Assembly (NCBI RefSeq): GCF_019649055.1
Contig: NW_026570243.1
Location: 124,001-188,000, forward strand
Origin: Paramacrobiotus metropolitanus
Taxonomy: Eukaryota > Tardigrada > Eutardigrada > Parachela > Macrobiotidae
Length of the DNA stretch: 64,000 nt
Direction of reading: 5' to 3'
Shown: positions 41,096 to 58,795 of the stretch, in pieces
Numbering within the stretch: the first letter of the stretch is position 1
Layout: every line of letters begins with the position of its first letter
Made by a program: the position numbers and the translations under genes
The notes under the pieces: model-generated
What the model was told of the DNA's origin: nothing
The model's database searches: none
Seen by the model: only the letters and a program-made list of their open reading frames with translations

Positions 41096-41413
41096 CATGT
41101 CATGCGCTGATTTACTCTGCATCCTATATGGAATTATATATTCCTACATTCTCAGTACGCGAAGGAAGGCTTTAATGGATTGGGACTTAAAACGTCGGTC
41201 GCATAAAAATTAGTCTTTCCTAAAAAAACGGCCAATTTTATCATTAAGTTTTAAAGCAATTTCTGTATATGGTCAAGCGAAATGCTACGCGCCAAAGTTT
41301 CATGGTTGCAGCACGACCACACAGCTATCCGGCTGTTCCTCTTACGCATTACGGCATGATGATATTATTCTGATAATACAATGTATCTTATTTATTATTC
41401 ACTACGGATAGGT

Positions 41414-41650
41414 GATTTTGCGAGCAGAACAGGATAGACGTTAATTTACTGAATGGTACCGGGCAGAGATGCTCACGCATGCTACTTTGTGCAGTAATCG
41501 GATACCGCTGATGCGAGCCGCACTTGTAAGCAGAAGATCAGGGGCACTGCCACTCTGCCGTCTCGGCGGGGCAGCCAGTGGTCCTGAACATCGGAGCCGG
41601 GCGGAGATGTTCACGTTTCATCACCGGAAGCGATGTGCATTTTGCGAACT
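41414..41650. repeat. Repeat module with CCCGGC / TGTTCACG motifs, left of the Polinton
   Basis: This stretch (CAGTAATCGGATACCGCTGA, ATCAGGGGCACTGCC, GCCGGGCGGAGATGTTCACG) is the inverse of 58510-58795 and is also related to 61680-61880. It lies just outside the left Polinton boundary, so the Polinton was inserted into a pre-existing inverted-repeat region. Confidence 0.6.
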
Positions 41651-41751
41651 CGTTACCCGTTACGTCATGGTTCTTACGCGGGTGCAGCTTGCGCGTTGTT
41701 TAAGGGAAGTAAGTAGTATGTCAATAGGTCCGGCAGCATCTCTGATTGGTC

Positions 41752-41903: not shown

Positions 41904-41981
41904 CCCCCTTTCTTTTGTTTATTTTTCCCCACCCTCTTTTATTTTGTTTTCACCGAATAACAACGAACAAAGTAAAACAAA

Positions 41982-43160
41982 TCAGACCGCATGAACATAC
42001 ACAGGAGTAGCAGTACAATCTTTGACAAAAATACAATTTCGGTTAAATTTCTGATGGTCATTGTATGGATCTCCCGGTGTCCAGTTGCTCATTGTAAACC
42101 GACAGAAATGACATTTAACTGTATCATCAGATCCGGTGTAGTACAGTCCGATCCTCGCCATGGCGCCGGCAGAAGGCAGGAGGTGTGGCCAATTTTCAAA
42201 AGTACTGAGTGGTCCGTTGGGGTCGTGCAGTGTGGAAACGTACTTGTACAGTTCTTCGGCTAAGGTATACACCTGCTCCTGGCCGTCCCAGATGCCCACC
42301 ATTTCGTCAGGTATACCTGAGAATCCGGACCAGGCTCCTGCAATGGCACAAGCCATGGTCCCAATGGCATCGGTGCATCCTCCGGTTAACATTGCCGCAT
42401 GAAGGGTGGTTTCAAAAGGGGAATCGCTGCGGCGACCAATAGCAGCACAGTAAATGGCAACGGGAACTGCGTCCAAAGGGCTGGTGCCAACGCCAATGGC
42501 TTTGAACAGTTTTTCCTTTGGTTCAGCGCGTTCCGCGTAGTCCAGCACCATCATCATACGTGTATAAAATTTCTGGCGTACAGAATCGGGGAGAGACTTG
42601 CTAGTGTATTCAACAAGAGCGGCGAGAAACTCAAGTTCCTTCATCTTTTTATTCTTTAGAACCAGACTGATGGCGTAGGCCTGCAACTGTGCCCCAGCGG
42701 CGGCATCATTGGAAGAGTGTGTGAGTCGGGCTACACGGTCTACAGAGAAACTCATCTGCTCCGTACGATTGTAGAAGTACAAGGGAAACGCTGTTATCCA
42801 AGTGGCAGCGTTACACTCTGTGCCCCGGTTGCGGACTGTCGTAGCAGCAGCGGTCCAGTCTTTTGGGGGAGAATGTTTCCAACTTGTAATAATGGTGGTC
42901 AGTTCACCAAAGGCTTGGCGTTTAGTGTAGTTGTAGTAAAAGGTTTGGCTACACTCTCGTGCGGCATTCTCCAAAGAAAAGAAGCCGGTATCCAGTAGAG
43001 ACTTGGCGTAAGCGTGCGTTATTAAGAATTTCTCCCAGTAAGTCGAGACCTTGCTCCGCACTCCCGCCAAGTTCATGTGGCAGGAGGTAGGGCGTCTCAG
43101 GGGTGTTCCGATGCATTCTCCGATCAGAGCGCCTAATAAACAACCTTTGTACTGATCCAT
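41982..43160 (-). CDS. ADP-ribosylglycohydrolase fused to a BIR domain
   Basis: 392 residues, uninterrupted. Residues 1-312 follow the ADP-ribosylhydrolase (ARH/DraG) fold: GCLLGALIGECIG near the start, RVARLTHSSNDAAAGAQLQA at about 143, VPVAIYCAAIG at 233 and TGGCTDAIGTMACAIAGAWS at about 259. Such enzymes remove ADP-ribose from proteins and use paired acidic residues to hold magnesium. The usual GGDTD is GGCTD here (Cys262, Asp264) and the N-terminal GD is GE, so activity is uncertain and binding without hydrolysis is possible. Residues 316-380 form a BIR zinc domain: TFENWP, IGLYYTGSDDTVKCHFC and H369-x6-C376. BIR domains bind caspases or their antagonists. I know of no standard protein with this pairing. 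A polyadenylation signal in this direction is at 41923-41918. It faces away from the PC4-like gene across a shared promoter region. Confidence 0.8.
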   Translation of the reverse strand: MDQYKGCLLGALIGECIGTPLRRPTSCHMNLAGVRSKVSTYWEKFLITHAYAKSLLDTGFFSLENAARECSQTFYYNYTKRQAFGELTTIITSWKHSPPKDWTAAATTVRNRGTECNAATWITAFPLYFYNRTEQMSFSVDRVARLTHSSNDAAAGAQLQAYAISLVLKNKKMKELEFLAALVEYTSKSLPDSVRQKFYTRMMMVLDYAERAEPKEKLFKAIGVGTSPLDAVPVAIYCAAIGRRSDSPFETTLHAAMLTGGCTDAIGTMACAIAGAWSGFSGIPDEMVGIWDGQEQVYTLAEELYKYVSTLHDPNGPLSTFENWPHLLPSAGAMARIGLYYTGSDDTVKCHFCRFTMSNWTPGDPYNDHQKFNRNCIFVKDCTATPVYVHAV

Positions 43161-43224
43161 GGCGTTCAGAATTGCGAATGAATTCCCATTCCAGACAGCT
43201 AAGATAGACCACGTCGTTTTCAGA

Positions 43225-43490
43225 AATCAAACTGGCGCTGACCTAGATTCTTTGTTCCTTGCCTAATCCAAACTGTCGCTGACCCGCATTATGTCTTATT
43301 CTCTCTGATTTGACAATGAGCAATCCAAACTGGCGCTGACCTAGATTCTTTGTTCCTTAGCTAATCCAAACTGGCGCTGACCCACATTCTGTCTCGTTCT
43401 CTCTCATTTGACAATGACTAATCCAAACTGGCGATGACCCACATTCTGTCTTATTCTCTCTGATTTGACAATGGTTGATCCACACTGGCG
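43225..43490. promoter_or_regulatory. Divergent promoter region with tandem ACTGGCG repeats
   Basis: Five or six copies of a unit with AATCCAAACTGGCGCTGACC (some with GGCGATGACC) and TCTCTCTGATTTGACAATG are spaced about 43-55 bp apart between the ARH-BIR gene and the PC4-like gene. The core ACTGGCG is the half-site of the palindromes upstream of the IAP and DNA polymerase genes. Role as factor-binding sites is inference from position and repetition. Confidence 0.6.
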
Positions 43491-43556
43491 ATGACCACGT
43501 TTTCTTCAGTTACTACGAATTCTCCACAGTCAGTGTTTCGGCACTGCGCTTTCAGA

Positions 43557-44234
43557 ATGGATTTTGACCTTTCGGAATTAACTTTTACTCCAGCGCAACG
43601 GGAATACTCTTCTGGATCTTTTCATATAAAGTTTCTAGATTCTGGAGAAATTCAAATCATCGGCTTTCGTTGTTACAAGAAGTCTTTGTCACTTTCGATC
43701 GCGGAATTTTTGCATATCCTCAGTTTTGTACGTGATGATTCGTACAACATACCTTTTTCGGTTGACGGCGATCGTTGTCACAACAAATCCTCGTTCACGA
43801 AGGATTTCGGCAATGGCTTATTGGCGAAACGCATAACTGTTAACGGGGTCACTGTCATTCAAATCGATCGTTTCACAAGTACCGACGCGAATTCTGATAG
43901 TCGCGCGAGAATTCCTAAAAAAGGAATCACTTTATTGAGGGATCTAAAGTAAGATGATTTACGGCGTTCACTGGCATCCATTCAGAACTTTAATTTTCAT
44001 CCGTTACCCTTGGAATTCCATCACGAATGCGCCTCGGCCATTGTTTCGGTTGCCAACGACCAAACGAATGGTGACGTGTGGAAAATTGCACAGGACGAGG
44101 CTTTGTTTTACCGCTTAGAAACAAAGTACATCGATATACTGTCCAAATACAGCGTCAATGACATCACTGGCGCTCCATCGCCAGTCGAGTTCTTTCGCCA
44201 GTGGAATTTCAGCATCGTAAGTCTTCAAGCGTAA
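43557..44234 (+). pseudogene. PC4-like transcription cofactor, interrupted by an in-frame TAA
   Basis: PC4/Sub1 proteins bind single-stranded DNA and help RNA polymerase II start. Here a frame starting at 43557 (or 43491) carries one beta-strand repeat (SFHIKFLDSGEIQIIGFRCY) and then a PC4-type core: KRITVNGVTVIQIDRF, a variable loop, and RIPKKGITLL, matching the PGKKGISL signature of PC4. A TAA at 43950-43952 follows at once, but the same frame goes on with LRRSLASIQNFNF and runs to 44234, so the natural protein was about 225 residues. Possible splicing over the stop (37 nt, GTAAGA to TTCAG) would shift the frame and is not favoured. The assignment rests on one strong motif and fold-like spacing. 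Confidence 0.5.
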
Positions 44235-44289
44235 CTACATTTCAAAGAACATTTAGTTTGATGTCGACCGCTCTTCTGTTCACATCAAA

Positions 44290-44736
44290 ATGGCTTCAGT
44301 ACGGGCTTTGGAAGTTTTGGGGGTGCATGAAGATTTTACTATCTACAAAATCAACGCTGTAGTTAGTATGTTTTGGAACCCGAAGGATGTTTGCTTCTTT
44401 CTAGTGTTCGATGCCAAACCGGACGGTTCTGGGTTGAAGAAGGCCATGGACAAAGGAGTTCGCCTGGCTTATGCCGATATCAACAGCATGTTAGGGATGA
44501 TTAGAAACGGGACACTGCAGGATTGTATGGACCGCGCCATCGTTGACAAGAGCGCTGAAAAGTTTTCTCTGCCGGGTCAGGGCTGTGTGGATGTTACTGT
44601 CAGCATCCACCCGAAATACGGACGCATGATTCGTTTCTCTCAACCTCGGCGCACCATTCAACTACCATATCAGGGATTCATCAATCTCATGGAGGAAATC
44701 TACATCCAGCACTGGGGACGGGATATTGTTGTCTGA
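44290..44736 (+). CDS. Unrecognised Polinton ORF, possibly a second PC4-like protein
   Basis: 148 residues, uninterrupted, in a good start context (AAAATGGCT). The N-terminal half (YKINAVVSMFWNPKDVCFFLVF) looks like beta strands followed by a helix. The C-terminal VDVTVSIHPKYGRMIRFSQP-RRTIQLPYQGFINLMEEI resembles the strand-strand-helix end of PC4, without the KKGI signature. It stands between the PC4-like and TBP-like genes in the same direction. Function is not established; a role in DNA binding or transcription is a guess from context. Confidence 0.5.
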   Translation: MASVRALEVLGVHEDFTIYKINAVVSMFWNPKDVCFFLVFDAKPDGSGLKKAMDKGVRLAYADINSMLGMIRNGTLQDCMDRAIVDKSAEKFSLPGQGCVDVTVSIHPKYGRMIRFSQPRRTIQLPYQGFINLMEEIYIQHWGRDIVV

Positions 44737-44850
44737 CTGGATGCTTCAATTTTTATTAGCATATCTTACTTAGCATTTACTCTGTTCTGTTTGTTGTGAA
44801 AAGAAAAAAGGCTTAGAAGCCATTATTTGTGACAGTCTTAACTTGAAAGG

Positions 44851-44860
44851 TATATAAAGG
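44851..44860 (+). promoter_or_regulatory. TATA box of the TBP-like gene
   Basis: TATATAAAGG, a consensus TATA box, stands 35 bp ahead of the first ATG (44886) of the TBP-like gene, which leaves a very short leader; the ATG at 44898 in GCCATGG context may be the main start. A TBP-like product controlling its own TATA promoter is an inference. Confidence 0.6.
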
Positions 44861-44885
44861 TTCCAAGTTGACACTGTCGCAATTA

Positions 44886-45437
44886 ATGCTCGTAGCCATG
44901 GATATACGTAACGTCATTCTTTCCGTCCAATTCGACAAAGCGATTTGTTTGGAGAAAGTTTGGAAATCATTTCCACTTAATACAAAGTCCGTTAAAGGAT
45001 TTAATGCTGTCACTTTAAGTTTACAAAACAAAACGTTCTGTCAATTATCCCCTAATGGTAAGGCTATAATAAACGGTGCTAAAAGTATTACAGGGTCGTA
45101 TTTACTCCTAAAATGTTATCAAATGATGCTTTATACTCAAGGCATAGAGTTAAACATTAAGGACAGCAGTGTCGCAAATACCGTTTGCACGTACAAGCAT
45201 ACACACAACGTTAACTTGGTAAATCTTTACGAAAAAGCAAAAAACTTCTCCGTGCAACGTCTACTAGAACCAGAGCTGTTTCCAGCACTAAAATTAAGGC
45301 TTTCGTACGCTACCATTCATATTTTCCATACCGGTAGCTGTGTAGTCCTTGGTTGTACTTCTTCGGAGCAAATTCTAGAAGTTTTTGAATTTGTAATAAA
45401 CCTCCTAGATTCTTCAACTGAAAACTCCAGAATCTGA
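44886..45437 (+). CDS. TATA-binding-protein-like factor
   Basis: 183 residues, about the length of the TBP core, with two TBP-type half repeats. The first reads IRNVILSVQFDKAICLEKVW, FNAVTLSLQNKTFCQLSPNG and GAKSITGSYLLLKCYQMML. The second reads VNLYEKAKNFSVQR, EPELFPALKLRL, IHIFHTGSCVVLGCTSSEQI and FEFVINLL. EPELFP-x-L with VSGK-like hairpin and GA/GC-x-S after it are hallmarks of the TBP saddle. TBP places RNA polymerase II at TATA promoters. The stirrup phenylalanines seen in true TBP are not all visible, so DNA specificity may differ. It lies between PC4-like and ATPase genes and has its own TATA box. Confidence 0.65.
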   Translation: MLVAMDIRNVILSVQFDKAICLEKVWKSFPLNTKSVKGFNAVTLSLQNKTFCQLSPNGKAIINGAKSITGSYLLLKCYQMMLYTQGIELNIKDSSVANTVCTYKHTHNVNLVNLYEKAKNFSVQRLLEPELFPALKLRLSYATIHIFHTGSCVVLGCTSSEQILEVFEFVINLLDSSTENSRI

Positions 45438-45540
45438 AACAATAACGGAATTTTTCAAAGTCAAAATCAGGAGTTTCTTGAAAAAAATTTTTCATAGATA
45501 AAGCATACAAATAGCGGTTTGAAAACGGAGTTTTTTAAAA

Positions 45541-46165
45541 TGGAAAAGGTGACTTTTGATTTCAGATTTAAAACTCCTTGTTCGCTTTATATTTCTGGTC
45601 CAACTATGTCCGGAAAATCGACATTTACGATGCAGCTTTTCCCAATAATTTCACACCTGCGCCCATACGTATAGTATATGCGTACGGTACATGGCAAGAG
45701 GCATTCAGTAATTTTGATAAGTCCATCGAGCTGCTGCCAGGAATGGATAAAATCTTGGAAGATGAAAATTTTTTTGATAGAAATACGCCTACGCTACTTA
45801 TTCTTGATGACCTCATGGAAGAAATATCAAAAAACGCAAAGTGTTCGACAATATTTACCAGAGATGTGCATCATAAAAATGTTTCCGTTATCTTTATATC
45901 GCAAAATTTATACAAACAAGGCAAAAGCATGAGAGATATCTCTCTTAACTCACAATATTTAATTTTATTTAAATCTGTACGTGATGTACAACAGATTAAA
46001 CTACTTTCTCGCCAGCTAGGTATGCCGCATTTGTGTGATGCAAACAAAAAGGCTATAAAGGAACCTTTTGGTTATTTGGTAATAAATCTTCGTCCTGATA
46101 CACCTGACAAGCTAAGGCTACAGTCAAACATATTTGACTACCGAAAAATATACGTGGAAAAATGA
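45541..46165 (+). pseudogene. FtsK/HerA (A32-type) packaging ATPase with a frame change
   Basis: This ATPase pumps the element's DNA into capsids. From the ATG at 45541 the first frame reads through YISGPTMSGKST, the Walker A motif, and ends at a TAG about 45 codons in. From about 45640 the next frame (+1) has APIRIVYAYGTW, TLLILDDLMEE (Walker B), VIFISQNLYKQG (sensor) and LFKSVRDVQQI, ending at the TGA 46163-46165. Together they span about 208 residues, the normal family length, so one extra base near a CTTTTCCC stretch (45632-45642) breaks the gene. Programmed +1 shifting or an assembly error are alternatives. The stop overlaps the next ATG (ATGA). Confidence 0.8.
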
Positions 46166-46482
46166 ATCCAGAAGACGTTCTCAGTATACTACGCGCTTTG
46201 GAAATTATGAATCCACGACAGCGTAGATATTTTTTACAGGTTGCTTTTAAAAAACAAATTTTAGCAATTGAAGAAGCTTGTTTAAATTTGGTGAAGCAAC
46301 CAACGGCTTTGAGTAAAGTTGATTTAGCCAGAGCACGACGTTTTGCACCGATAATTAAGCGTTTAGCCGACAGAAAACTTTCACACGTTAAAAAGCGAAC
46401 AATTTTAGCGCAAAAAGGAGGATTCTTAGCTGCTCTACTTCCAATTCTGGGAACACTAGTTCCATCATTTATAACAAAATGA
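46162..46482 (+). CDS. Small basic Polinton protein, candidate virion component
   Basis: 106 residues, uninterrupted. A basic helical N-terminal part (MNPRQRRYFLQVAFKKQILA) precedes RARRFAPIIKRLADRKLSHV-type basic stretches, and the end is a glycine-hydrophobic tail GGFLAALLPILGTLVPSFIT. A short basic protein with such a tail is regularly found between the ATPase and integrase or capsid genes of Polintons and adintoviruses; it has been likened to adenovirus core or cement proteins, but I cannot confirm homology. Start and stop both overlap neighbours by 4 nt (ATGA). Confidence 0.65.
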   Translation: MNPEDVLSILRALEIMNPRQRRYFLQVAFKKQILAIEEACLNLVKQPTALSKVDLARARRFAPIIKRLADRKLSHVKKRTILAQKGGFLAALLPILGTLVPSFITK

Positions 46483-47447
46483 AGACCTACGTTCTTGTAC
46501 CTGAGTCCGAATTTTCTGCACCCGGCAAGACCAAAGCCACCTCATGGAAAAAGGCTGAAGAATTTCGTAGTGCCATGACTCATGATTGGCTGACTCGTGC
46601 CGCGTATCAGACTAAGTCTGCAGACTATGAACCACGGGTTATGAGATCTGAAGTTAACGAACACAAACCAAACGTGCCTTCGCAAAGGAACTATGGTACT
46701 CAAGCTGCGCCTCTTTTTACTGATGGATCAACACAAGCGACCGAACCTCCGGTTATTCAGTATCTACCAAGTGAGCCAGTATATTTCCAAAGTGAGCCCA
46801 CAACACAATATATTGAACGCGAACCTATTGTGCAGTATATCGAGCGCGATCCCGTTGTGCAGTATATCGAACGTGAACCAGTTGTACAATACGTACCACA
46901 GTATGTACCTAGAGAGACACTGGTAAAACATGTGTATAAAAGTCCACGCCCCAAGCCAATATCCAAAGGGCAAAGACCAAAAAAGAAGCTACCATCCTCA
47001 CCCATCTTAGAGTTTCCGGATGATGGGTCTTTAGAGTATGTACCTCCCGAATACGAACCACTTCCCGTGTCGCTACCTACAGATCGCATCGACGTTGTGG
47101 TTGCACCGCGAAGCTCTGGTCCAATTACACGCAGCAAAAAAGCGGCTCCGTATAAGGTTCCCGATAGAAAAGCGATTACATCCAGGGCTTTACCGGCCCC
47201 TTCGACTTCACAGGCCTTATCTGTACCGGAAAATTTAAAAGCTTTGCCCGCCCCATCAACTTCAAAGGCTTTACCAGCGGCTCCGACAGCCAAAGCGTTG
47301 ACCTATACAGAACCAACGGAAACACGCACCCTCAAGAATGGCGTTGAAAAGAGCTATGACTTATTAAGGCGTAAAACCACAAAATCTACGGGTCCTCCTA
47401 AAAAGAAGCAAAAGACACAGAAGGGTGGTTGGCTCAGCTACGCATAA
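46479..47447 (+). CDS. Polinton structural-type protein with EREP repeats, unrecognised function
   Basis: 322 residues. It opens MKTYVLVPESEF, similar to a protein beginning MK-x-YVLVP that I associate with other Polintons and adintoviruses. Residues about 90-150 contain four degenerate QYIEREP-type repeats; residues 155-320 are Pro/Lys/Ala-rich and look disordered, with a second set of repeats (ALPAPSTS). The last residues KGGWLSYA recall the KGGF motif of the upstream small protein. Probably a virion-associated or core protein. The stop TAA shares an A with the integrase ATG (TAATG). Confidence 0.6.
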   Translation: MKTYVLVPESEFSAPGKTKATSWKKAEEFRSAMTHDWLTRAAYQTKSADYEPRVMRSEVNEHKPNVPSQRNYGTQAAPLFTDGSTQATEPPVIQYLPSEPVYFQSEPTTQYIEREPIVQYIERDPVVQYIEREPVVQYVPQYVPRETLVKHVYKSPRPKPISKGQRPKKKLPSSPILEFPDDGSLEYVPPEYEPLPVSLPTDRIDVVVAPRSSGPITRSKKAAPYKVPDRKAITSRALPAPSTSQALSVPENLKALPAPSTSKALPAAPTAKALTYTEPTETRTLKNGVEKSYDLLRRKTTKSTGPPKKKQKTQKGGWLSYA

Positions 47448-48478
47448 TGGCAACACTGGACGATATTTATTTAGATGCTTCTAATCCTGGTAGTCTGGGA
47501 GGCATCGAGCGTTTGTACCGGGAAGCGCAAAATCATGGATTTTCTCGTCAGCAAGTGGAAGAGTATTTGCAAAGCAAAGACGCTTATACTCAACATAAAC
47601 CTTTTCGGTCGAAATTTAAACGTCGAAAGATTTTATCATTTAATATTGGTGACCAGCACCAAATTGACTTGGCAGATATGCAAAAATTTGCGAATGACAA
47701 TAAAGACGTTAAGTATTTACTGACTTGTGTCGATTGTTTTTCTCGCTACGGCTGGGCCGAGCCCGTCAAATCAAAGAAACCCGAAGAAATTATTCGTGCT
47801 CTGTGTAATATTTATAAAGAATCTGATCGACCACTGCGCTGCCAAAGCGATAACGGTAAAGAATTTGTGAATAAACAACTGAAAAACTTTTTTACTGATC
47901 ACAATATCAGGTTTTTTACAACAAAGAACGACGATGTTAAATGTGCCATGGTAGAGCGATTTAACCGAACAATTAAGGAACGTCTTTACGTGTACATGAC
48001 AGAGAATAATACTTACAAGTACCTCGATATTTTACCTGAGATTTTAAAATCATATAATAATTCTATTCACTCTAGTACTGGGTTTGCCCCCAGTCAAGTG
48101 GATGTGGATGAAGCGCGCATTATCCGTCAAGATATGATAGAAGAGCCACAAGCAAAAAATCCTATTTTTCAGGTAGGGGATCACGTGCGTATAGCAAAAC
48201 GCAAGCAAACGTTCGAAAAGGGATACGAAACCAATTACACTGAAGAAATTTTTAAAATTGTACAAGTTAAAAAACGACAGAATCATTACATCTACGCTTT
48301 GGAGGATCTAGGAGGTGAAAAAATTGATGGAGATTTTTATGCCAGCGAACTGTCAAAATTTATTATGGTCGAGCGACCGTTTCATCGTATATCACGTATA
48401 TTAAGGGAGAGAATGTACAAGGGAAAACAGCAATACCTTATACGTTGGTACGGTTACGGTCCCGCTTACGACTCTTGA
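47447..48478 (+). CDS. Retroviral-type DDE integrase with chromodomain (ends at an early TGA)
   Basis: Inserts the element, giving the 6-bp TSD. Catalytic residues are visible in order: QIDLADM (first Asp), CQSDNGKEF (second Asp) and AMVERFNRTIKERL (Glu). The segment VDCFSRYGWAEPVKSKK and YNNSIHSSTGFAPSQVD are typical of Polinton integrases. After a basic SH3-like part a chromodomain begins (ISRILRERMYKGKQQYLIRW-YGYG) and stops at TGA 48476-48478. In the same frame eight more codons run to a TGA at 48500-48502 that overlaps an ATG in the standard ATGA manner. The early TGA thus stands where chromodomains have Trp and trims only nine residues, so function could be partly kept. Confidence 0.85.
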   Translation: MATLDDIYLDASNPGSLGGIERLYREAQNHGFSRQQVEEYLQSKDAYTQHKPFRSKFKRRKILSFNIGDQHQIDLADMQKFANDNKDVKYLLTCVDCFSRYGWAEPVKSKKPEEIIRALCNIYKESDRPLRCQSDNGKEFVNKQLKNFFTDHNIRFFTTKNDDVKCAMVERFNRTIKERLYVYMTENNTYKYLDILPEILKSYNNSIHSSTGFAPSQVDVDEARIIRQDMIEEPQAKNPIFQVGDHVRIAKRKQTFEKGYETNYTEEIFKIVQVKKRQNHYIYALEDLGGEKIDGDFYASELSKFIMVERPFHRISRILRERMYKGKQQYLIRWYGYGPAYDS

Positions 48479-48498
48479 GAAAACAAAGAAGATCTAAA

Positions 48499-48990
48499 AT
48501 GAGTTTTTATATGACATGACACTACCGTCTTCCGCATCTCACAATATTTATCCCGCAAATCGTTGTGGAAAATTCACAACTTTGCTAGCCAAAGGTATTG
48601 ATCTTGATGGAAACTGGGAAGTCGGTCTTTCCGAAATTATTTTACCACCGATGCGTCTCAGGTTTACTGAGGGTTTGGCAGTGCTAGTTAAAACCACGAC
48701 TACGCCGAGACACAGTCGGTATTTAAATAAAGAGTCATACAATGACGAGAATCAACTAATTCGGAAAATAAACCTTCTACTGCGTGACAAAGACACCATC
48801 TTTGGACATATTGACGTGACTGGTAGCTCCGCACCGCTGGTGGTAAATCCTGATGCCGAGCTCACGTTTCAGGGATCAGAGTATACGAGGGCGCTGGGTC
48901 TATTGCAAGAGCACTTTTACGCCGGTGCCGGTGGTCAAACGTACCACTTACGACCGGGCAAGGTGAGTCGAGCCATTTATTCTATCTTCC
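48499..48990 (+). pseudogene. Penton (minor capsid, single jelly-roll) protein, C-terminus lost
   Basis: Forms capsid vertices. The first ATG at 48499 reads MSFYMT and then a stop caused by a 5-base duplication (ATGAC twice, 48511-48520), but a restart at 48516 reads TLPSSASHNIYPANR, FTTLLAKGIDLDGNWEVGLS and AEIILP-type sequence, which is the Polinton penton N-terminus. Later GSEYTRALGLLQEHF and the strand leading to IYSIF fit. After about 48985 the frame turns into sequence unlike any penton, and the adjacent frame already reads capsid-protein sequence, so the penton C-terminus and probably the first capsid codons appear deleted. Confidence 0.7.
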
Positions 48991-50273
48991 GGCGACTCTT
49001 ACCGAAAGGTGGAATACCCGCGATTATGATATCGGGCCAACGCAAGCCCCGTCGGACACACCAACGATTATGTTTTTACCATTGCTCCGTGTCAAACTGA
49101 ACTTATTAGTTTGGCAGATGTCCGATTTTCTTGTGATCTGTATGTAACTGACTCTAAAGGGGATATGCCCACGGATGATGCCTGCCTGACAACCGTAAAT
49201 AATATTCTCGATAGTTTATTTGAACAGGTAATTGTCACTCTGGGTGGTCGTAATATTTCTGACAGCAGCTCCATGTACCATATGCGGGGGTACATTGAAA
49301 ATCTTCTAGGCTACACTAAGCAAGCGCAGGCTTATCAATTACAACTGTCTGGGTTTGCCATGGACACACTACTGTGGAAGCAAGATCCATATTACGAAGC
49401 CAAAGTTAACAATGAAAAGATCTTTTTTAGCAAAGGAGCAGAGTTAAGACGAATGTGGCTTCGAGCGTGCCGCCCACTGCAATTATCAGGAAAGCTGCAT
49501 TGTGATTTGTTCCAACAGGACAAACCACTGATACCAGGTGTCGAGTTGAGCATAAAATTAATGCGTAATAAAAACAGTCTAGTCTTTATGACGGACAGTG
49601 ATTTATCAAAGCCAAAATCTGTAATTATCAAAAACCCTCGTTAAAAATTAGAAAATACGAGCCATCGCCCGATTTTCTAGGGGCTTCAACTAAGCAATTA
49701 GTTACAACAAATGCCAAGTACCACATTGAACGTGTTGCTATGCGGCAAACTACTCTGTTTGCCGGACAGCAGCAACATATTTGGCCCAATCTTGTTATCG
49801 GGCAGTTACCCAAGGTTATGTTGTTTGCCATGGTACCGAGTAGGGCATTCAATGGGGAATATACTTCGACGCCGTATGCTTTTAATCATTTTAGTTTGGC
49901 TTACTTGCATGCAGAAATGGACGGGCAAATATTTCCAACTCGGGGATATAATATGGATTTTGAAAACGGGGCTAGTTTGGAGCCGTACGAAGGACTTTTT
50001 GATACACTGGAGCGCCTTCACGAAGGTTTTGGAGAGCTACCGTTCGACAGATCTGATTATAATTTAGGTGGATTTTGTATTTATGGCTTTGATTTTACGA
50101 GAGGGCATACAGGACGTGGTGCTATATCGCTCATTCGGCAAGGTAATTTAAATATGAGCATGCGTTTTGCCAAACCATTACCAGAAGCAGCTGTATGTAT
50201 CGCCATGCTAGTTTACGATAATATTATTGAAATAAACAATAATCGACAAGTACTTTTTGATTTTGCACCATGA
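48962..50273 (+). pseudogene. Major capsid protein (double jelly-roll), broken into three frames
   Basis: This is the hexon-like protein of Polinton capsids. Pieces in order: a segment in frame 2 from about 48985 to 49070 (LPATLTERWNTRDYDIGPTQ); a segment in frame 1 from about 49070 to 49644 with NDYVFTIAP, EQVIVTLGGRNISDSSSMYH and RGYIENLLGY; and a segment in frame 3 from about 49630 to 50273 with TTNAKYHIERVAMRQTTLF, YAFNHFSLAYLHAEMDGQIF and CIYGFDFTRGH. Frame changes lie near 49070 and at a run of five A (49630-49634). The ATG is not found, apparently lost in the fusion with the penton gene. The stop TGA overlaps the protease ATG. Confidence 0.75.
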
Positions 50274-50770
50274 ATAATTTAGAAATTGAGAAATCCCTTC
50301 TTTCGGATCCCAAAATTCGTGAAATTTTTGTTGGGGTTTTTTCTAGTAACACTATACCTGAAAAACAATATCCCGGTGCATATATCGTAAACACAAAAAA
50401 AACGGGGAGTCCCGGCGAGCACTGGGTGGCTTTTTTCTGCGTTCGTCGAAACGTGCTAGAAGCGTTTGATTCGTATGGCCGTAATCCTGCGGAATATTCG
50501 CCGGATCTTGCAGAATGGATGGGAGATGATTACATCATTATGTCCAATACTACAAGACAAAACACCGACAGCACCGTATGCGGCCAGTACTGTATGTTTT
50601 ATGTATTATTGCGATGCTACGGTTTTTCGTATAAGGATCTGATGTCGGCATTCACCAAGCATAAAGGGGTGAACGATAAATTCGTATGCAAATTTATCAA
50701 TAAATTTTTCCGTATAAGCACAAAACTAAGAGACAACGAATTCATAAAATCACTAATAAATCATGGATAA
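50270..50770 (+). CDS. Adenovirus-type cysteine protease (C5 family)
   Basis: Matures virion proteins by cutting them. 166 residues, uninterrupted. The catalytic triad is visible: His51 in GEHWVAFF, Asp67 in EAFDSYG, and Cys104 in VCGQYCMFY, with Gln97 placed for the oxyanion hole. The spacing fits adenovirus and Polinton proteases. Its ATG overlaps the capsid stop and its stop lies inside the next gene (8-nt overlap), so it belongs to the virion gene block. Confidence 0.9.
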   Translation: MNNLEIEKSLLSDPKIREIFVGVFSSNTIPEKQYPGAYIVNTKKTGSPGEHWVAFFCVRRNVLEAFDSYGRNPAEYSPDLAEWMGDDYIIMSNTTRQNTDSTVCGQYCMFYVLLRCYGFSYKDLMSAFTKHKGVNDKFVCKFINKFFRISTKLRDNEFIKSLINHG

Positions 50771-50981
50771 ACCTACAATTAAAGAGATAATTTCTATTAT
50801 TTTTGGAATTCTCATCACCATTTTATTACTGATTTTTAATATTTTAGAAATATGCGGCCACTTCGCTAAACCCAACGTAACTCGCATAACGGAATCCAAC
50901 CGGCTGACAAAAGATGTACTAGATGTAATGCTGAGTGATGACTCATCGCCAGTACCAACTGGCGATAGCAACAATATATAA
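50763..50981 (+). CDS. Small single-pass membrane protein
   Basis: 72 residues with one hydrophobic helix (IISIIFGILITILLLIFNIL) near the N-terminus and a polar tail. The start is 8 nt inside the protease stop region. Small membrane proteins at this place occur in Polintons, but I cannot name a family. The 3' end of the frame runs through the palindrome and TATA box of the IAP promoter, so either the gene or the promoter constrains those bases. Confidence 0.55.
   Translation: MDKPTIKEIISIIFGILITILLLIFNILEICGHFAKPNVTRITESNRLTKDVLDVMLSDDSSPVPTGDSNNI
50946..50981 (+). promoter_or_regulatory. IAP promoter: palindrome plus TATA box
   Basis: TCGCCAGTACCAACTGGCGA (50946-50965) is a palindrome with two mismatched centre bases, and ATATATAA follows at 50974-50981. 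The IAP ATG is at 51019. The same arrangement stands before the DNA polymerase gene at 52048-52080. Confidence 0.65.
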
Positions 50982-51018
50982 CGTTCGAGAAGCGGGGAAT
51001 GAACTTCATTCGTTCAAA

Positions 51019-51753
51019 ATGGCGCGACCAGATATGACAATTGTTGAAAACCGTGTTCGGTCTTTTATCAGTTGGCCATGGCCTTTGACGGCTCCATCCA
51101 GACTGGTACTTGCCGGTCTGTTTTTTAAGCAGTTTCCCGATGAAGTCGGTTGTGCATATTGTGCGTGGACTGCGCATGACTGGGAAGGGGATGAAAACCT
51201 TGTCCTGCGACACGACATGGAAGCAACCGACTGTCCCAGAGTTGGATCTTTGTTACACTCCCCAATAGCTGATGTTAAAGCGAGGTTCGCTACATTTTAC
51301 AACTGGACATTTAAACAACACCCCCGAGAAATGGCCGAAGCGGGATTCTTTTTTACTGGACCAAAGGATCGGGTCCAGTGTTTTTCTTGTAACATTTATC
51401 TGGAAAACTGGCAGGTTGAAGATATTCCATGGGAGGAACACGCGCGTCATGGTGTTGGGTCGTACAACTGCAGCTTCGTGAAACAGGAAAAAGGATCACA
51501 ATATGCGGAAGAAATCATCGCCAAAGCCTTTGCGAAATCGGAGCAAGTGGCCACCGCGGCGGCTGCCGTCTACGCTGAGCGTAAAGAGACTTCAGAGAAG
51601 CCGCAATGTACTATTTGTTTGAATGCTGATATAAAGTGTGCTTTTCAACCTTGTGGTCATGCAGCCTGTTGCGATGCGTGTTCTATGCGTATGTATCATT
51701 GTCCTATTTGCCGCACTCGTGTCTGGGAGTGCAACACAATTTTTATTTGTTAA
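51019..51753 (+). CDS. Inhibitor of apoptosis protein, BIR-BIR-RING
   Basis: 244 residues from an ATG in AAAATGGCG context; the frame is open further upstream but that would run through the promoter. BIR1 spans about 12-76 (Cys45, Cys48, His65, Cys72), BIR2 about 88-154 (FYNWTF, AGFFFTGPKDRVQCFSC, Cys151). RING at 197-232 has CTIC, CGH, CC-x2-C and CPIC in C3HC4 order. This is the layout of baculovirus IAPs and of insect DIAP-type proteins: BIRs bind caspases or their activators, and the RING is a ubiquitin ligase. It would delay death of the host cell. BIR2 has a longer His-to-Cys gap than usual (EHARHGVGSYNC). An AATAAA lies at 51776-51781, inside sequence almost identical to the 3' flank of the ARH-BIR gene. 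Confidence 0.9.
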   Translation: MARPDMTIVENRVRSFISWPWPLTAPSRLVLAGLFFKQFPDEVGCAYCAWTAHDWEGDENLVLRHDMEATDCPRVGSLLHSPIADVKARFATFYNWTFKQHPREMAEAGFFFTGPKDRVQCFSCNIYLENWQVEDIPWEEHARHGVGSYNCSFVKQEKGSQYAEEIIAKAFAKSEQVATAAAAVYAERKETSEKPQCTICLNADIKCAFQPCGHAACCDACSMRMYHCPICRTRVWECNTIFIC

Positions 51754-51764
51754 ATTAAATGCTA

Positions 51765-51825
51765 CAAAACAACCAATAAAAAGAAAGGGGTGGGGAAAAA
51801 TTAACAAAAGAAAGGGGGTAAGATG
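51765..51825. repeat. 3' flank shared with the ARH-BIR gene (inverted copy at 41902-41950)
   Basis: GTGGGGAAAAATTAACAAAA then GAAAGGGGGTAAG here matches, inverted, GTGGGGAAAAATAAACAAAA then GAAAGGGGGTAAAG downstream of the ARH-BIR stop. Roughly 45 bp with two or three differences. It suggests that both BIR-containing 3' ends come from one source. Confidence 0.75.
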
Positions 51826-51878
51826 CGTACATGTTCAAACATGTGTGGCGACCAATAGCCGTGAATGGTAGACGGTTA

Positions 51879-52046
51879 TCGCCAGTCCAGCTGAATGAGA
51901 CTAGACACAAACTAGGTCAGTCGCCAGTCCAGCTGAATGAGACTAGACACAAACTAGGTCAATCGCCAGTCCAGCTGATTGAGACTAGACACAAACTAGG
52001 TCAATCGCCAGTCCAGCTGAATGAGACTAGACTTAAACTAGGTCAA
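51879..52046. repeat. 42-bp tandem repeat, four copies, upstream of the DNA polymerase
   Basis: Units start at 51879, 51921, 51963 and 52005, each with TCGCCAGTCCAGCTGAATGA and GACTAGACACAAACTAGGTC. Each unit carries the CGCCAGT half-site and ends at the complete palindrome at 52048. Because 42 is divisible by three, an uninterrupted frame crosses it (SPVQLNETRHKLGQ repeated), which I take as incidental. Confidence 0.85.
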
Positions 52047-52047
52047 C

Positions 52048-52080
52048 CGCCAGTACCGCTGGCGATCAAAATTATTTAAA
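52048..52080 (+). promoter_or_regulatory. DNA polymerase promoter: palindrome plus TATA-like box
   Basis: CGCCAGTACCGCTGGCG (52048-52064) followed by TATTTAAA at 52073-52080, then the presumed first coding exon at 52136. Spacing of palindrome to TATA (8 bp) is the same as at the IAP promoter (8 bp). Confidence 0.6.
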
Positions 52081-52135: not shown

Positions 52136-55100
52136 ATGGACGACTATCAGCTTACGGATGTTGATCGTATGGACACTGATGCTATTTTCGACGAAGGGTC
52201 ATGGAATCTTCCACCATCGCCACCGTACATTATCACCGATGCGGATCGTCAGGATACCGATGCCATACTTGCGACTGGTGATTGGGATGATTGGGTGAGT
52301 GACGTTTGAAGATAAGAATAGTTTTTTTTGTTAAAAATAGCTTAAATTTCAATGCTCGCTTATCTGGATTTCTTTTTTTTGTTTTTTTTTGAAACGATCG
52401 TAACTGATAACTACTATAAATTTCAATACCTCCATTTCAAAGTAAATATTTTTTGACAAATAAAAACTAGGAGGAAACGTTTTTTACCACCAGTCAGCGG
52501 TTGTTTATGCGATAAAGACTTCGAATAAAAATTATAATCATCGACAAAAGGCGGTCGTTTGATCCATTTAGAATATTGGAATCAAAACCTTCTGGTAGAT
52601 TGTAGATTGCTAAATATTTAAGATAGTTAATTTATTTAAGTCATTTGCAAATTCGATAATGATTTACTTTTTTCCACTTGGAACAAGCATTTGCTGATAA
52701 CAAATGCAAAAAAAAGTATATAATAATAATATCATATATAAATATCAGTAAGCTGATACACTGCGTCCTGGTAAATAATTAAACCATAAAACTATTGTTT
52801 TTAATAATCAGCGGTCTTTCGCTTTATACGTCACTGGCCTTTCTAGAATAGTATAATCTGTTGTGACCGACACTAAAATTCTGATTCATCTATTGACAAC
52901 AGTAATCATCGATGCCAGTCAGTCTTTTGACCTACTTAGAACAATAGTTTGTTTTTGTCGATACTGGATTGTGAATACGGTTCTGTCCTAGTTAGAACAA
53001 TAGTCTTCGACGCCAGTTAGTCTTTTGGCCTAATTAAAATAAAAGTTGTTTTGATGCGCATCAGCTTTTGTATAGACATTTGTCCTAGTTAAAACATTAC
53101 TAGAATAACACAACATACTGAGAACTTACCAAATTCCGACGATCTAGGTGGTAAGGAACGCTGACCAGGGAGACGCGGGGAAAGCGACGGGTGGTGCCAT
53201 GGACATTGGTATTCCAGATGCGGTTTCGGGAAAGCCACTGGTAAGCTAATAAAACATTAAAATAAGAACGACATTTTCTCAATAAAGCCGAAAAGTTAAT
53301 TTTTTACAACTGGTTGTTTTCGCAAAACAAACAAGTCGGTTTTGTACAACAATTATAAGAAAAATTACGTAATATGCAGGTCACTATTACTTTACATGTA
53401 TTTGTAATTAATAAGCCATTCTTCTTGTAATACATATTATATTTCTGTAGGCACTGGAAGAAATCAGTGATATTCCGGATTTTTCAGCCCTATTCAGCCT
53501 GACTAAGAACAAAGAGCGCCAGTTCAAGAAATTCAACAGCACCGAGTACGAGTACCGTGTGGAAATCGCCGCCCTGCCGCGTATTCATTCTCAGGAAGAA
53601 ACAGTCTTGCTTCTGCCTTTACTGCTGGAATCCATATTGAGTCTCTGCGTGGCTCAGTTTCAACCATCTGACCGTGTTATCATTTCCATTAGCTGTGCGT
53701 CGCTGGAATTCCCAATTTACTTGTCTATGCGGAAATTGTCGGACTTCAGTGTCGACGACCTTGTTGCTGTATGTACCAAGGCCAACTCCGGGCGGATGGT
53801 GCTGGACGATACTTTTTCAATCCGGATTTTTCGCACTATTATGCCGAGTGGTGGTAACTGGAGGTTTTTACATCGTCACGTAGCGCGCGACGCCAAACGT
53901 TTCAGCACGTCCATTGTTACTGTCCGTGTGCACAATAATTATTGTCTACCAGCAGCGCTGTACTTGGGCAAGTACCGCTTGACGCATGATGTTCAAGGAA
54001 CGTACAAAAGCCAGTGGAAGCACCTCTACAGTGAGAAAGGAATTAACAAGCTGACAGGCCATGCCCGAGAAATTATCCAGCTGTCTGATTTACCGTTGGG
54101 ACGGTGCTACAACCTTAACGACCTGAGTGCCATCCAGGAAGAATGCTTTCTCGAATTCCAGGTTAAAGTTATTTCGGCGGATCACGGCAATACCTTTATC
54201 GCCCGTGTGCCGGAAAAGAAAACAAAGGATATGAAGGAAATCTTTGTCTTGTTGGAGAAGAATCACTTTGACCTCGTGACTACGGTGACCGGTATTTTCA
54301 ACTCGTCATACTTCTGCTCAGAGTGTGACAAGCCGTACAGTCACAAGGAGCGGCATCGATGCGGTGGGAACTGTCGCTTTTGTTATCGGTCAGTTAGTGA
54401 ATGTGTGGAAGGGGTGGTTGTTCGCTGTGGCGACTGCCGCCGTACGTTCAACAACCAGGAATGCTTCACCATCCACAAAGCTGTTCGCCGTAACGGAAAA
54501 ACCTATTGTTCCCAGATGTTTTACTGTAAAGACTGCCGCCGCTTTGTGAACTTGACACGTCGTCCAAATGGTAACCACCAGTGTGGGGAGATGTTTTGCA
54601 CAGTTTGCCGTGAGTGGGTTCCTCAAGCCACGCATAAGTGTTTCATAAAAGTCCTTCCAAAGCCTTTACCGACCTTACCAGATAAACCAGAGCCGCCGAA
54701 GCGATACATTTTCTTCGATTATGAGACGTACAATGATCCGGGCAATGGACATACTCCAAGTTGTGTTGTGGCCCAGTACGAAGACGGTACGGAATTCCGA
54801 TTTCCGGCGGATGGTCAACCAATAACCAAGGATGTCGGACAGAAGTTCGGAGAATGGCTGTTTTCAGAGCAGCACAACCATCATACCATCATTGCGCATA
54901 ACTTCCGGGGATATGACGGGCACTTTCTCCTAAAGCACCTTTTGGACAATAAACTGCGCGGTGTGGAAGTCATCAAGAGGGGAACCCAGCTTCTGGAGCT
55001 GCGCTACCGTTCGTTAAATATGTGTTCCCGTGACACACTGAATTATATGCCTATGAAACTCAGCAGTTTGCCCAAAGCAGTTGGTTTGGAGGTGGAAGTA

Positions 55101-57297
55101 AAAAAGGGCGATTTTCCGCATCACTTTAATCGACCTGAGAACTGGGATAAAGTGCTGCCGTGGCCTGAACCGGAAATGTACGTTTTTGACGGTCTAAAGA
55201 AGAACGATAAAGAAGATTTCCTTAAGTGGCATGCCGAAACTAAAGCCGCTGCGGGGGGACAGTTCGACTTTCGTGCAGAAATCATGTCGTACTGCTCGAA
55301 TGACGTCACCGTTCTCCGACGCTGTGCCCTCAAGTTTGTAGAGGATTTCATCGCTCTCACTAATCTGAACCCGCTGGACAGTATCACTATGTCATCCGCC
55401 TGCAATAAGTATTACCGCACGTTCCATCTGGAACCTGAAAAGTTAGCTGTGTTGTCAGCTCATGGCCCCCACCGCAACCGACGCACCAGCGTTCAAGCCA
55501 CGCAATGGATGGAGTTGCTGAATCGAGACCTTGGTGGGCGCATTCAGCACGGACGAAACGGCAAGGAAGTCCACATCGGACCGTACTTTGTGGATGGTTT
55601 TGATGCTAGTACTCGTACAGTTTACGAGTACAACGGCTGTGTATTCCACGGGCACCCCGAATGCACTGAACAAGATGATCGGTCTCCTTTCTCTCGTAAA
55701 AAGATGAACGAAGTGTACGAGGAATAACTGGATCGTGTACGTTACCTAGAGGATGAGAAGTATGAAGTAGTTACAAAGTGGGAGTGTGAATGGATAAAAG
55801 AGCGCCAAGAAACGGATACCGCTGCCTTTCTCTCTGGACAAAGACTGCGGGAACCACTAAACCCGCGGGACGCCTTCAAAGGCGGGCGTACCAATGCCAG
55901 TCGCTTGTACTACGCAGTAAGAACAGGAGAAATGATTATGCATTTCGACGTCGTCAGCCTGTATCCTTTTGTCAACAAGACAAAGACTTATCCCATTGGA
56001 CAGCCAAAAATCATCCTGTCAGACTTTGCGGATGTCAAAGATTATTACGGACTGATATCCTGCAAAGTGTTACCACCAGCACAGTGCTTGTACCCTGTTC
56101 TTCCAGCCACGATAAACAAAAAGTTGGTATTCGCGCTTTGCCGAACGTGTGCGGATATTAAGAACAAGGAATTCTGCAAGCACAGCGATGCCGACCGCTG
56201 CCTCGAGGGGGTGTGGACAACCCCGGAGCTCCACCACGCCATCACCAGAGGATACACCGTGCAAGAAGTGTATGAGGTATGGCACTGGGAAACCGTGGAG
56301 GCTGGCGTTTATGCTGGGTGCATTAACAAGTTCCTGAAAATAAAGATGGAGGCTAGCGGATGGCCAAGCTGGTGTAAGACACAGCTGCAGAAGGATGAAT
56401 ACCTTCGTCAGGTCAAGGAACGTGAAGGAATCGATCTCGACCCAGCCGCTATGATCTACGATGCCGGCCGACGTAACGTGGCCAAAAACTGTCTTAACTA
56501 CCTGTGGGGCAAGCAGGAACAGCGAGATGATATGACTATGACCAAATTCGTCTACAAAACCAAGGACTATTTGGACATGATCCGTTCCAAGGCCGTTGAA
56601 ATTCATGATGTCTTTGCCATCAACGAGGACTGTCTCATGGTGACATATTCTAAGGGAGAAGACTACAACGAGGGTAGTAACGCTACAAACGTTGCCCTGG
56701 CCGCATTCACCACCGCCAATGCTCGCCTAATCCTACTGGATATGATGGAAAAGCTGGGCGATCGCCTCATGTACTATGATACTGATTCAGTCGTCTTTCT
56801 CACCCGCCCCGGGGACTGGGTGCCGGAGACGGGCAGCATCCTGGGCGACTGGGACAACCAGTTACAGGCGGGTGAGAGCCACATTGTGAAGTTTGTGTCG
56901 TGCGGCCCAAAGGTTTACAGCTACGAGACTGACACTGGTCGGATCGAATTAAAGGTACGTAGACGTGCAGTAAATATGTATGTACAGTATCTATAATATT
57001 TATTGTTCTTAGGCGAAAGGCCTTACCCAAAACGGGTACACAGAGGATATTTTGGATTTTAATGAAGTCACCAAGTCCTTCGCCCGTACTGGACAGACCT
57101 TGGACTTCGACAAACTGAAGCGTCTGTTGGACGGGACAGAATCCCATGTTCAAATCATTTATCCTGAATTCATCAAGCGGAACGGCAAAACACAAGAAAT
57201 TAATACTGTTTGTTTGTTTAAGAAGTTAAGAATGGTTTATGACAAGCGTATGTTGCTTCCCGATTTCACAACGCTACCTTTCGGTACTAAGCAATAA
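52136..57297 (+). pseudogene. Protein-primed DNA polymerase B, spliced, with one in-frame TAA
   Basis: Replicates the element from a terminal protein primer. The main exon, 53451-56954, carries a Cys-rich zinc region (CSECDKPYSHKERHRC, CKDCRRF, CTVCREW) and exonuclease motifs IFFDYETYND and IIAHNFRGYDGHF. Polymerase motifs follow: HFDVVSLYPF (A), a KNCLNYLWGKQ motif B and YYDTDSVVF (C). A 58-nt intron, 56955-57012 (GTACGT to CTTAG), separates the final exon 57013-57297. Two upstream exons in matching phase are likely: 52136-52294 (MDDYQLTDVDRMDTD, donor GTGAGT) and 53148-53240 (donor GTAAGC); they are less sure. The TAA at 55725-55727 lies between the exonuclease and polymerase halves, after NEVYEE and before LDRVRYLED; one C-to-T change of CAA would explain it. 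Total near 1346 residues, normal for Polintons. The AATAAA at 57293-57298 overlaps the true stop. Confidence 0.85.
56955..57012 (+). other. 58-nt intron in the DNA polymerase gene
   Basis: Starts GTACGT, ends TTGTTCTTAG, contains in-frame stops, and its removal joins the IELK and AKGLTQNGY segments that are continuous in Polinton polymerases. This is the clearest intron in the element. Confidence 0.85.
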
Positions 57298-57996: not shown

Positions 57997-58509
57997 GACC
58001 AATCAGAGATGCTGCCGGACCTATTGACATACTACTGAAGTAAATAGCCGGGTACATCACACCAAATCCGTGCATATGCGCGAAAATTTTCTTGCGCACA
58101 CTCTCAAGAACAGTTGACCTTTGCCAGTGATTTCTTCTTGCATATTGCGTAGGAGTGTCGCCCCAAAAAGACTGTAAACATGGGACTATATTCCGAGGCT
58201 GCTATGTTTGGGAAAAAAACGGTTTAAACTCGTGCTCGCACACTCCAAAAATGTCCCTTTTATTTTTATCTATCGTTTGTCTATCGTTCGAATTTTGAAT
58301 ACATTGTCTAACCCTTGTTATTCGCTGTTAAGGTATAACAAGGGAAAAGCATCTGAACCCATTGTTATTGTGCACCGCAAGTCATTTTTTTACTTTCGAC
58401 CGTTTTTGCTCCGAGTACAGGTAGGGTAAATTATACTTTTAAACTGGGTTAATTATTATTAACACTCTTTTAAAGCTTTTACATATGAAACGTTAGTTTT
58501 TGGATTTAT

Positions 58510-58795
58510 TTTCAAAGCTAACATCTGTAAACGTGTACATCCCGGCCCGGCATGCGTGCTCACAAACGTGAACATCCCCGCCCGGCATCCATGTTCACGA
58601 ATGTAATGGATACTGGCAGCATATATACAAGTACAATACACTGTATAGCACCGCCGATTGACAGTGCCCCTGATTTGCTTACAAGTCTGGCTCAATCAGC
58701 GGTATCCGATTGCTGCACAGTAGCAAACGTAAATGTGGACAATAAACATTCACCAATTCATCGTCTATCCTCTTCTGCTCACATAATTTCCTCAT
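58510..58795. repeat. Repeat module right of the Polinton, inverse of 41414-41650
   Basis: Contains CGTGAACATCCCCGCCCGGC, CATGTTCACGAATGTAAT, CAGTGCCCCTGATTTGCTTA and TCAGCGGTATCCGATTGCTG. These are inverted counterparts of the module left of the Polinton, and 61680-61880 is a second copy in this same orientation. Confidence 0.65.

Follow-up and report, generated by a model that had tools for sequence, protein, structure and literature searches.

Among the closest known relatives of the protein reported here is human ARH3 (ADPRS; PF03747), whose residue numbering is used below for all ARH positions. The binuclear metal site of this fold has seven ligands, which we take to be E41, T76, D77, D78, D314, D316 and T317, and the positions of H182 and F143 presumably contact ADP-ribose. 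ARH2 (ADPRHL1), a vertebrate heart protein without a BIR domain, is an ARH-fold pseudo-hydrolase. BIR domains are a feature of the baculovirus and insect IAPs and of XIAP, cIAP and NAIP. Among virus-like elements, most intact vertebrate Mavericks carry extra genes that flank the core modules (PMC8097293), and the part of that account considered here names no ARH or BIR gene among them. The locus analysed here lies in a 64,000-nt stretch of the Paramacrobiotus metropolitanus genome (the window), in which the following features were placed:

41410..41751, left terminal inverted repeat of weak conservation, containing a 40-nt perfect arm (41712-41751)
41905..41935, minus strand, purine-rich 3' motif of 31 nt, 46 nt beyond the stop codon of the fusion
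41982..43226, minus strand, ARH-BIR fusion frame, TGA stop included, first Met at 43160
43227..43496, stretch separating the fusion from the rightward genes, made up mostly of 98-nt and 57-nt tandem repeats
44847..45437, plus strand, TATA-binding-protein (TBP) homologue (PF00352, E 1.7e-18)
45572..46165, plus strand, candidate packaging ATPase resembling poxvirus A32 (PF04665 below its cut-off, E 0.0091)
47402..48478, plus strand, retroviral-type rve integrase (PF00665, E 2.7e-11) with a chromodomain-like end (PF00385, below cut-off)
48498..50273, plus strand, three overlapping frames without family match, in the place expected for capsid genes
50261..50770, plus strand, cysteine protease of adenovirus/ASFV type (E 2.8e-4 against ASFV S273R, residues 42-154)
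50935..51753, plus strand, IAP with two BIR domains and a C-terminal RING by Pfam, the RING above its cut-off
51787..51817, plus strand, second copy of the 31-nt motif, downstream of the IAP stop
53451..56996, plus strand, DNA polymerase B (PolB), viral/organellar (protein-primed) type by profile (each of its two pieces matches PF03175 in a separate search)
57997..58792, right terminal inverted repeat (58529-58792 pairs with 41410-41642, and 57997-58036 with 41712-41751)

Of the features of a Polinton, the element has the predicted PolB, rve integrase and adenovirus-type protease. The protease frame had no match in a Pfam profile search, nor did any of the three frames in the capsid position, one of which also returned nothing meaningful from the PDB (best E 0.53). 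An outer 105-nt inverted repeat (40983-41087/62674-62778) was provisionally not accepted as the Polinton end because the inner repeat pair gives a 17.4-kb element. Near the ends of this inner pair two 6-mers are shared, neither of them positioned like a target duplication. In the open reading frames of the window PolB is split by an in-frame stop, and this copy of the element therefore looks defective though its fusion frame is intact. Compared with the vertebrate Mavericks, as far as the same part of PMC8097293 describes them, the tardigrade Polinton has the TBP and the 31-nt motif as extras. Relatives of the TBP also lie near other fusion loci, and it is Polinton-borne here. The 31-nt sequence is a conserved gene-end motif, being found in addition after PolB in another element and after a 150- to 168-residue protein in further elements.

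The fusion frame is open from stop to stop over 414 residues and places an ARH3-like domain (residues 28-308) ahead of a single BIR (residues 340-402). The first domain covers positions 1-287 of the PF03747 profile (E 5.4e-34; 118.6 bits against a cut-off of 26.2), a full-length match from which an ARH fold is predicted, and the second matches PF00653 over positions 2-70 (E 2e-15, cut-off 22.9), with C372, C375, H391 and C398 as the zinc ligands of the window copy. The original prediction of an intact ARH frame running into a BIR with C-x2-C and H-x6-C ligands, in the same Polinton as a BIR-BIR-RING IAP, is thus borne out. The zinc-binding BIR is shared with the baculovirus and insect IAPs, XIAP, cIAP and NAIP, and the element's own IAP resembles these in its BIR-BIR-RING layout; unlike them, the fusion contains a single BIR and lacks a RING. 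It lies just inside the terminal repeat and points outward; the integrase, on the opposite strand, is some 4 kb away. The repeat-rich region behind the fusion may serve as a two-way promoter.

This arrangement is not confined to the window. Twenty open fused frames of P. metropolitanus, including the window copy, were aligned and fall into three clades, the other 19 being 33-95% identical to the window copy; such a number of diverged copies within one genome takes the fusion beyond chance. Both domains exceeded their Pfam cut-offs in all seven fused proteins that were scanned from this set (window, L043, L045, L061, L062, L065 and L071). Of the 56 fusion-related loci, 36 have a window-type integrase no more than 30 kb away, at a distance of 3.68-4.58 kb in 31 of those 36, and 47 have either an integrase within 31 kb or a relative of the TBP within 5 kb. 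As to whether other Polintons hold both genes, which the original prediction had proposed as a check, the window-type integrase and an IAP are both present within 30 kb at 27 of the 56 loci. Conversely, no fusion-related locus occurs within 31 kb of 42 of the 78 integrase loci or of 20 of the 50 IAP loci, and the gene is therefore dispensable for the wider element group. In six informative pairs of copies (dS at least 0.39) dN/dS is 0.12-0.18, with 0.11-0.16 for the ARH domain and 0.09-0.28 for the BIR, and both domains are under purifying selection in these pairs; among 12 pairs of low dS (0.011-0.155), three gave 0.59, 0.74 and 0.96, each on few changes. With synteny among the support, the fusion is shown to belong, as a standing accessory gene, to a group of Polintons in P. 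metropolitanus.

The pairing of ARH and BIR in one chain was found in P. metropolitanus and nowhere else by protein searches of limited sensitivity, which reach close relatives only and scored 8000 candidates in two cases and 4508 in a third. These results, together with titles and opening lines of abstracts in which no ARH-BIR fusion is described, fit the earlier statement that none was known. Two copies are entered at NCBI as tardigrade proteins, one under the name 'ADP-ribosylhydrolase ARH3-like'. Viral contigs returned a single distant match to the ARH part (24% identity, query residues 27-310; L076) and nothing in a search for the integrase pattern; phages gave no match for the fusion or the cysteine protease, and from PHROGs the fusion query retrieved only an ADP-ribosylglycohydrolase family and the IAP query nothing.

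ARH3 chains are the best solved relatives of the ARH part (best E 1.6e-17 with the window copy; 1.3e-25 with a copy from clade C), and it is at the metal site, besides the attached BIR, that the fusion departs from them. In all 20 aligned copies D314 is replaced by Cys, D78 by Lys and T317 by Ala or Gly; E41 is Lys or Arg in 19, and D77 is Glu in 18 and Lys in two. D316 is the sole ligand position identical throughout, and six of the seven are changed in the window copy. By contrast, an ARH gene at C40 retains TDDT and GGDTDT. The alignment shows that the predicted metal site has been lost through changes fixed across the three clades. That the altered site is in turn conserved among the copies suggests that the domain has become a pseudo-hydrolase in a new role and has not simply decayed. 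It may be likened to pseudo-hydrolases of the ARH2/ADPRHL1 type, in which the ARH fold is kept without catalysis, and from which the fusion differs by its BIR.

It is therefore suggested, with about an even chance of being right, that the fusion acts by binding and not by catalysis, and in this way disturbs cell-death or ADP-ribose signalling in the host. Through its altered pocket the ARH fold would bind a host ligand or protein, the BIR would dock a second partner, and the protein might thereby hold, mask or compete for components of this signalling, while the separate BIR-BIR-RING IAP would act alongside it as a death inhibitor of the ubiquitin-ligase type. The two genes had been predicted to form a paired anti-defence module; the recurrence of both and the constraint on both domains are in keeping with such a pair, whereas its proposed hydrolase activity does not fit the metal site. 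It had further been predicted that the BIR would steer the protein to a caspase or IAP-related partner, as it may do; the peptide groove on which this would depend is unevenly retained (see below). Points against the binding-protein reading are the mixed retention of the ADP-ribose-contacting positions (H182 in 19 of 20 copies, the F143 position lost), the lack of clear conservation in the BIR groove, the three higher dN/dS values at low dS, the many integrase and IAP loci that lack the gene, and the failure of the fused BIRs to form one group in most bootstrap trees.

Given the constraint on the BIR, it is possible, if unlikely, that this domain is the working part and the ARH fold a carrier or steric block, so that the protein would compete like a truncated IAP at caspases, IAPs or TRAF-like partners. 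The zinc site is conserved (C372 in 19 of 20 copies; C375, H391 and C398 in all), and PDB matches of the fused BIR include XIAP, cIAP1/2, DIAP1 and NAIP. However, the ARH domain is equally constrained in the same pairs, and 71 of its 302 columns are invariant, seemingly more than an inert carrier needs. Read by eye on the XIAP alignment, with roles assumed for the groove residues, the IAP-binding-motif groove appears to be retained in part in clade A and seems to be missing from clade C, which has Lys at the position of XIAP W323. A derivation of the fused BIR from the element's own IAP was not adopted: in a weakly resolved tree of 48 short domains (62 columns, long branches) the fused BIRs form two groups apart from BIR1 and BIR2 of the elements' IAPs, and of 200 bootstrap trees just 4% unite them in a single group. 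The common 3' flank of the two genes was likewise rejected as proof of such an origin, because the 31-nt motif also trails PolB and the 150- to 168-residue protein.

Somewhat less likely is an ADP-ribose reader or shield, in which Lys/Arg at E41 and Lys at D78 would take the place of both metal ions, so that the pocket would go on holding ADP-ribose and would mask marked proteins without cutting. These basic residues are near-universal among the copies, and T315 is retained in all 20 and H182 in 19 alongside the invariant D316, but the adenine-side positions vary between clades, the F143 position being lost and the 147-152 loop differing when the copies are read against the ARH3 alignment. The fuller form of this idea, a permanent reader docked by the BIR onto the cell-death machinery, is doubtful; if true, one viral protein would link ADP-ribose signalling with apoptosis control.

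More doubtful again is a role in structure, replication or superinfection, or a gene captured by the host, unrelated to cell death. The accessory regions of vertebrate Mavericks (PMC8097293, in the part considered) and the two tardigrade entries at NCBI are compatible with it, but the copies sit in multi-copy elements rather than at one host locus, and 31 of the 36 with an integrase are 3.68-4.58 kb from it. The original prediction, an active ADP-ribosylhydrolase that the BIR delivers to strip ADP-ribose marks made by host PARPs, was rejected and is very improbable: the domain is complete by profile and keeps D316 and H182, yet the 20 copies do not carry the ligand set of an active hydrolase. 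An assembly chimera of two host exons can be dismissed, given 20 open fused frames in separate places and three clades and no point in its favour.

The preferred reading of a non-catalytic binding protein carries a caution, that a Pfam match to ADP-ribosylglycohydrolase is not evidence of hydrolase activity, and offers the testable claim that a viral ARH fold may serve binding and not catalysis. Selection has maintained, across diverged virus-like elements, a domain pairing that the searches made here found only in P. metropolitanus. The fusion adds to the case that Polintons carry host-interaction genes as viruses do.

The original prediction placed an ARH-BIR fusion and a BIR-BIR-RING IAP in a single Polinton, and this arrangement was confirmed by Pfam, which found the domains at both frames. 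The features of the element are as follows.

41982-43226, minus strand: ARH-BIR fusion, with residues 28-308 matching PF03747 and residues 340-402 matching PF00653
50935-51753, plus strand: IAP, with two BIRs and a RING by Pfam
44847-45437, plus strand: Polinton-borne homologue of the TATA-binding protein (TBP; PF00352, E 1.7e-18)
41410-41751 and 57997-58792: inverted repeats, element span about 17.4 kb
41905-41935, minus strand: 31-nt purine-rich motif, 3' of the fusion
51787-51817, plus strand: 31-nt purine-rich motif, 3' of the IAP

The element surrounding the two genes also encodes an rve integrase, identified by Pfam, and a protease related by sequence comparison to ASFV S273R. The DNA polymerase B (PolB) at 53451-56996 is a single frame in two pieces and, given the in-frame stop between them, this Polinton copy is probably defective. 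No capsid gene was identified by sequence within the element, and a search for a 6-bp target duplication gave no clean example. Tandem repeats of 98/57 nt lie between divergent genes at 43228-43496, and others of 42 nt (51878-52061) and 50 nt (57745-57923) lie outside the named genes.

The assembly searched (169.8 Mb, 533 contigs; the window is C23:124001-188000) contained at least 101 matches to PF03747 (110 of 110 candidates scored) and at least 106 to the fusion protein (101 of 317 scored), these being lower bounds on pieces that include unfused ARH and BIR-only matches. Twenty open fused frames from both searches were aligned, leaving aside stop-bearing frames, short pieces and some open frames (e.g. 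on contigs C1 and C183). Three clades were distinguished by identity to the window copy: clade A comprises that copy and seven frames at 84-95%, clade B two frames at 63-64% and clade C ten frames at 33-35%. All seven of the twenty proteins scanned with Pfam carry both domains. Besides the window's own protein, the protein searches, which are sensitive to close relatives, matched the fusion to two P. metropolitanus entries only, namely P0003, 'ADP-ribosylhydrolase ARH3-like', with PF00653 and PF03747, and P0002, 'uncharacterized protein LOC129595870', with the ARH domain only. Apoptosis genes occur in adintoviruses. Among the leading results of literature searches by title and abstract start, none dealt with a fusion of ARH and BIR or with Polinton-borne IAPs, and no title concerned TBP in Polintons. 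Maverick is named in the repeat libraries of two other tardigrades (PMC11071193), and the accessory regions and TIRs of Mavericks are covered (PMC8097293).

Selection was estimated as dN/dS by the Nei-Gojobori method for 21 chosen pairs of fusion genes. Six informative pairs, with dS of 0.39-1.63, gave whole-gene values of 0.12 (window-L034), 0.18 (window-L036), 0.15 (window-L043), 0.18 (L036-L043), 0.12 (L061-L067) and 0.12 (L062-L067), L-numbers denoting genomic copies; in these pairs the ARH part alone gave 0.11-0.16 and the BIR part alone 0.09-0.28. In twelve pairs with dS of 0.011-0.155 the values spanned 0.11-0.96; three exceeded 0.5, but these rest on few changes. The three pairs comparing clade C with A or B were saturated. 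The fusion is real, conserved and unusual in architecture.

For the ARH metal site, positions were counted on an alignment with human ARH3, in which the metal ligands are E41, T76, D77, D78, D314, D316 and T317. The window copy has R44 at E41, W64-E65-K66 at T76-D77-D78 and C284-T285-D286-A287 at D314-T315-D316-T317. Across the twenty copies, the E41 position is K in 10, R in 9 and E in 1; T76 is R in 10, W in 9 and S in 1; D77 is E in 18 and K in 2; and T317 is A in 10 and G in 10. The D78 and D314 positions are K and C respectively in every copy, and D316 is always D. The ADP-ribosylhydrolase activity originally predicted for the fusion is not upheld by these alterations; from sequence, the site looks dead, and the function of the protein is something that we infer. 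Given that C284 and K66 are fixed across clades only one third identical, the alignment points to a single ancestral altered ARH whose altered site was retained. Five unfused ARH frames (L009, L010, L012, L014 and L015) are altered differently, with K at E41, D at D77, V or A at D78, D at D314, N at D316 and T or V at T317. An ARH gene on C40, in exon-like pieces, keeps TDDT and GGDTDT, and therefore the canonical form is present in this genome.

L009, L010 and L012-L015, which include the five frames above, each hold an unfused ARH in a single open frame; a GGDTN motif occurs in the five aligned, and copies of like score lie on C15, C31 and C44. Another repeated unit (L072, C3:831500-833500) carries an unfused ARH of 393 aa, with SGT, by eye, where TDD is expected, and about 9-14 kb away (L073, C3:841300-847000) are single-BIR, double-BIR and RING frames. 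Similar pairs of ARH and BIR matches occur on C17, C53, C88, C111, C148, C165, C218 and C19, and ARH and BIR genes seem to have travelled together more than once.

In the fused BIR, the zinc ligand C372 is kept in 19 of 20 copies and the other three ligands in all. Aligned with XIAP, clade A keeps the Trp and an Asp near the anchor position, together with a deletion of one residue; in clade C the Trp is replaced by Phe and W323 by Lys. On this comparison the groove for IAP-binding motifs may be partly kept in clade A and lost in clade C. In a low-resolution tree of 48 BIRs (15 fused; identical rows removed, 62 columns), the fused BIRs fall into two clusters, separate from those of IAP BIR1 and BIR2. 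A single fused cluster is recovered in 4% of 200 bootstrap replicates, yet no well-supported branch stands against a single origin. As the tree does not unite the two fused clusters, the BIR may have been joined to the ARH either once or twice.

Of the 20 aligned fusion genes, 19 are followed by the 31-nt motif in slightly varied form (one inserted base in L036, L038 and L039), and in L063 it is shortened. It follows 12 of 14 IAPs inspected by eye, being a rearranged part in L083 and absent in L087. With up to three mismatches it occurs at 105 places in the genome, versus none for the pattern read backwards; among 100 listed places, 42 follow fusion genes, 25 follow IAPs and 33 lie elsewhere. 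Among eight of the latter stretches, inspected for the preceding gene, it lies 10 nt after PolB in one (L094), after a protein of 150 to 168 residues in four (L088, L089, L092, L093) and after frames of 101 to 104 residues in two (L091, L095). The motif includes AATAAA-like and G-rich runs and is probably a shared transcript-end signal.

Linkage was assessed at 56 fusion-related loci, typed from the fusion-protein matches by merging pieces and setting aside short fragments and rows with an unfused ARH or a BIR alone; a few match the ARH part only (e.g. C54, C18, C51, C151:267613). Fifty IAP loci were typed from the matches listed (174 matches; 142 of 349 candidates scored), excluding other listed rows, some of similar identity, and 78 integrase loci from 123 matches (114 of 1146 scored), rows at or below 42% identity being dropped. 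Since they cover the scored and retained matches, all the counts here are lower bounds. An integrase lies within 30 kb of at least 36 of the 56 loci, an IAP of at least 30 and both of at least 27. The nearest integrase is on the opposite strand within 12 kb in 33 of the 36 loci that have one, at a gap of 3.68-4.58 kb in 31. The IAP lies 7.7-9.3 kb from the fusion, inside the element, in 11 of 14 cases in clades A and B, and 18-24.5 kb away, toward the other end, in 13 of 16 in clade C. For TBP, 62 relatives were hand-picked among 150 scored matches (23-100% identity, possibly including host TBP); 45 of the 56 loci have one at a distance of up to 5 kb, and an integrase or TBP relative is present at 47. 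Neighbouring genes are syntenic too, as in the clade C copy L026, where the genes after the fusion are relatives of TBP and of a 159-residue protein.

At eight of the 56 loci (C32, C37, C58, C13) a second, inverted fusion copy lies nearby. Three such pairs (C32:91744-106668, C37:526411-546639, C58:660624-673233) are 10-18 kb apart with no integrase or TBP match nearby; none of the scored integrase matches falls there, and in the inner flanks examined the usual neighbours are present only in pieces. It is possible that these pairs are non-autonomous derivatives. Finally, 42 of the 78 integrase loci and 20 of the 50 IAP loci are without a fusion-related locus at distances up to 31 kb: the fusion is one accessory gene, present in part of this element group.
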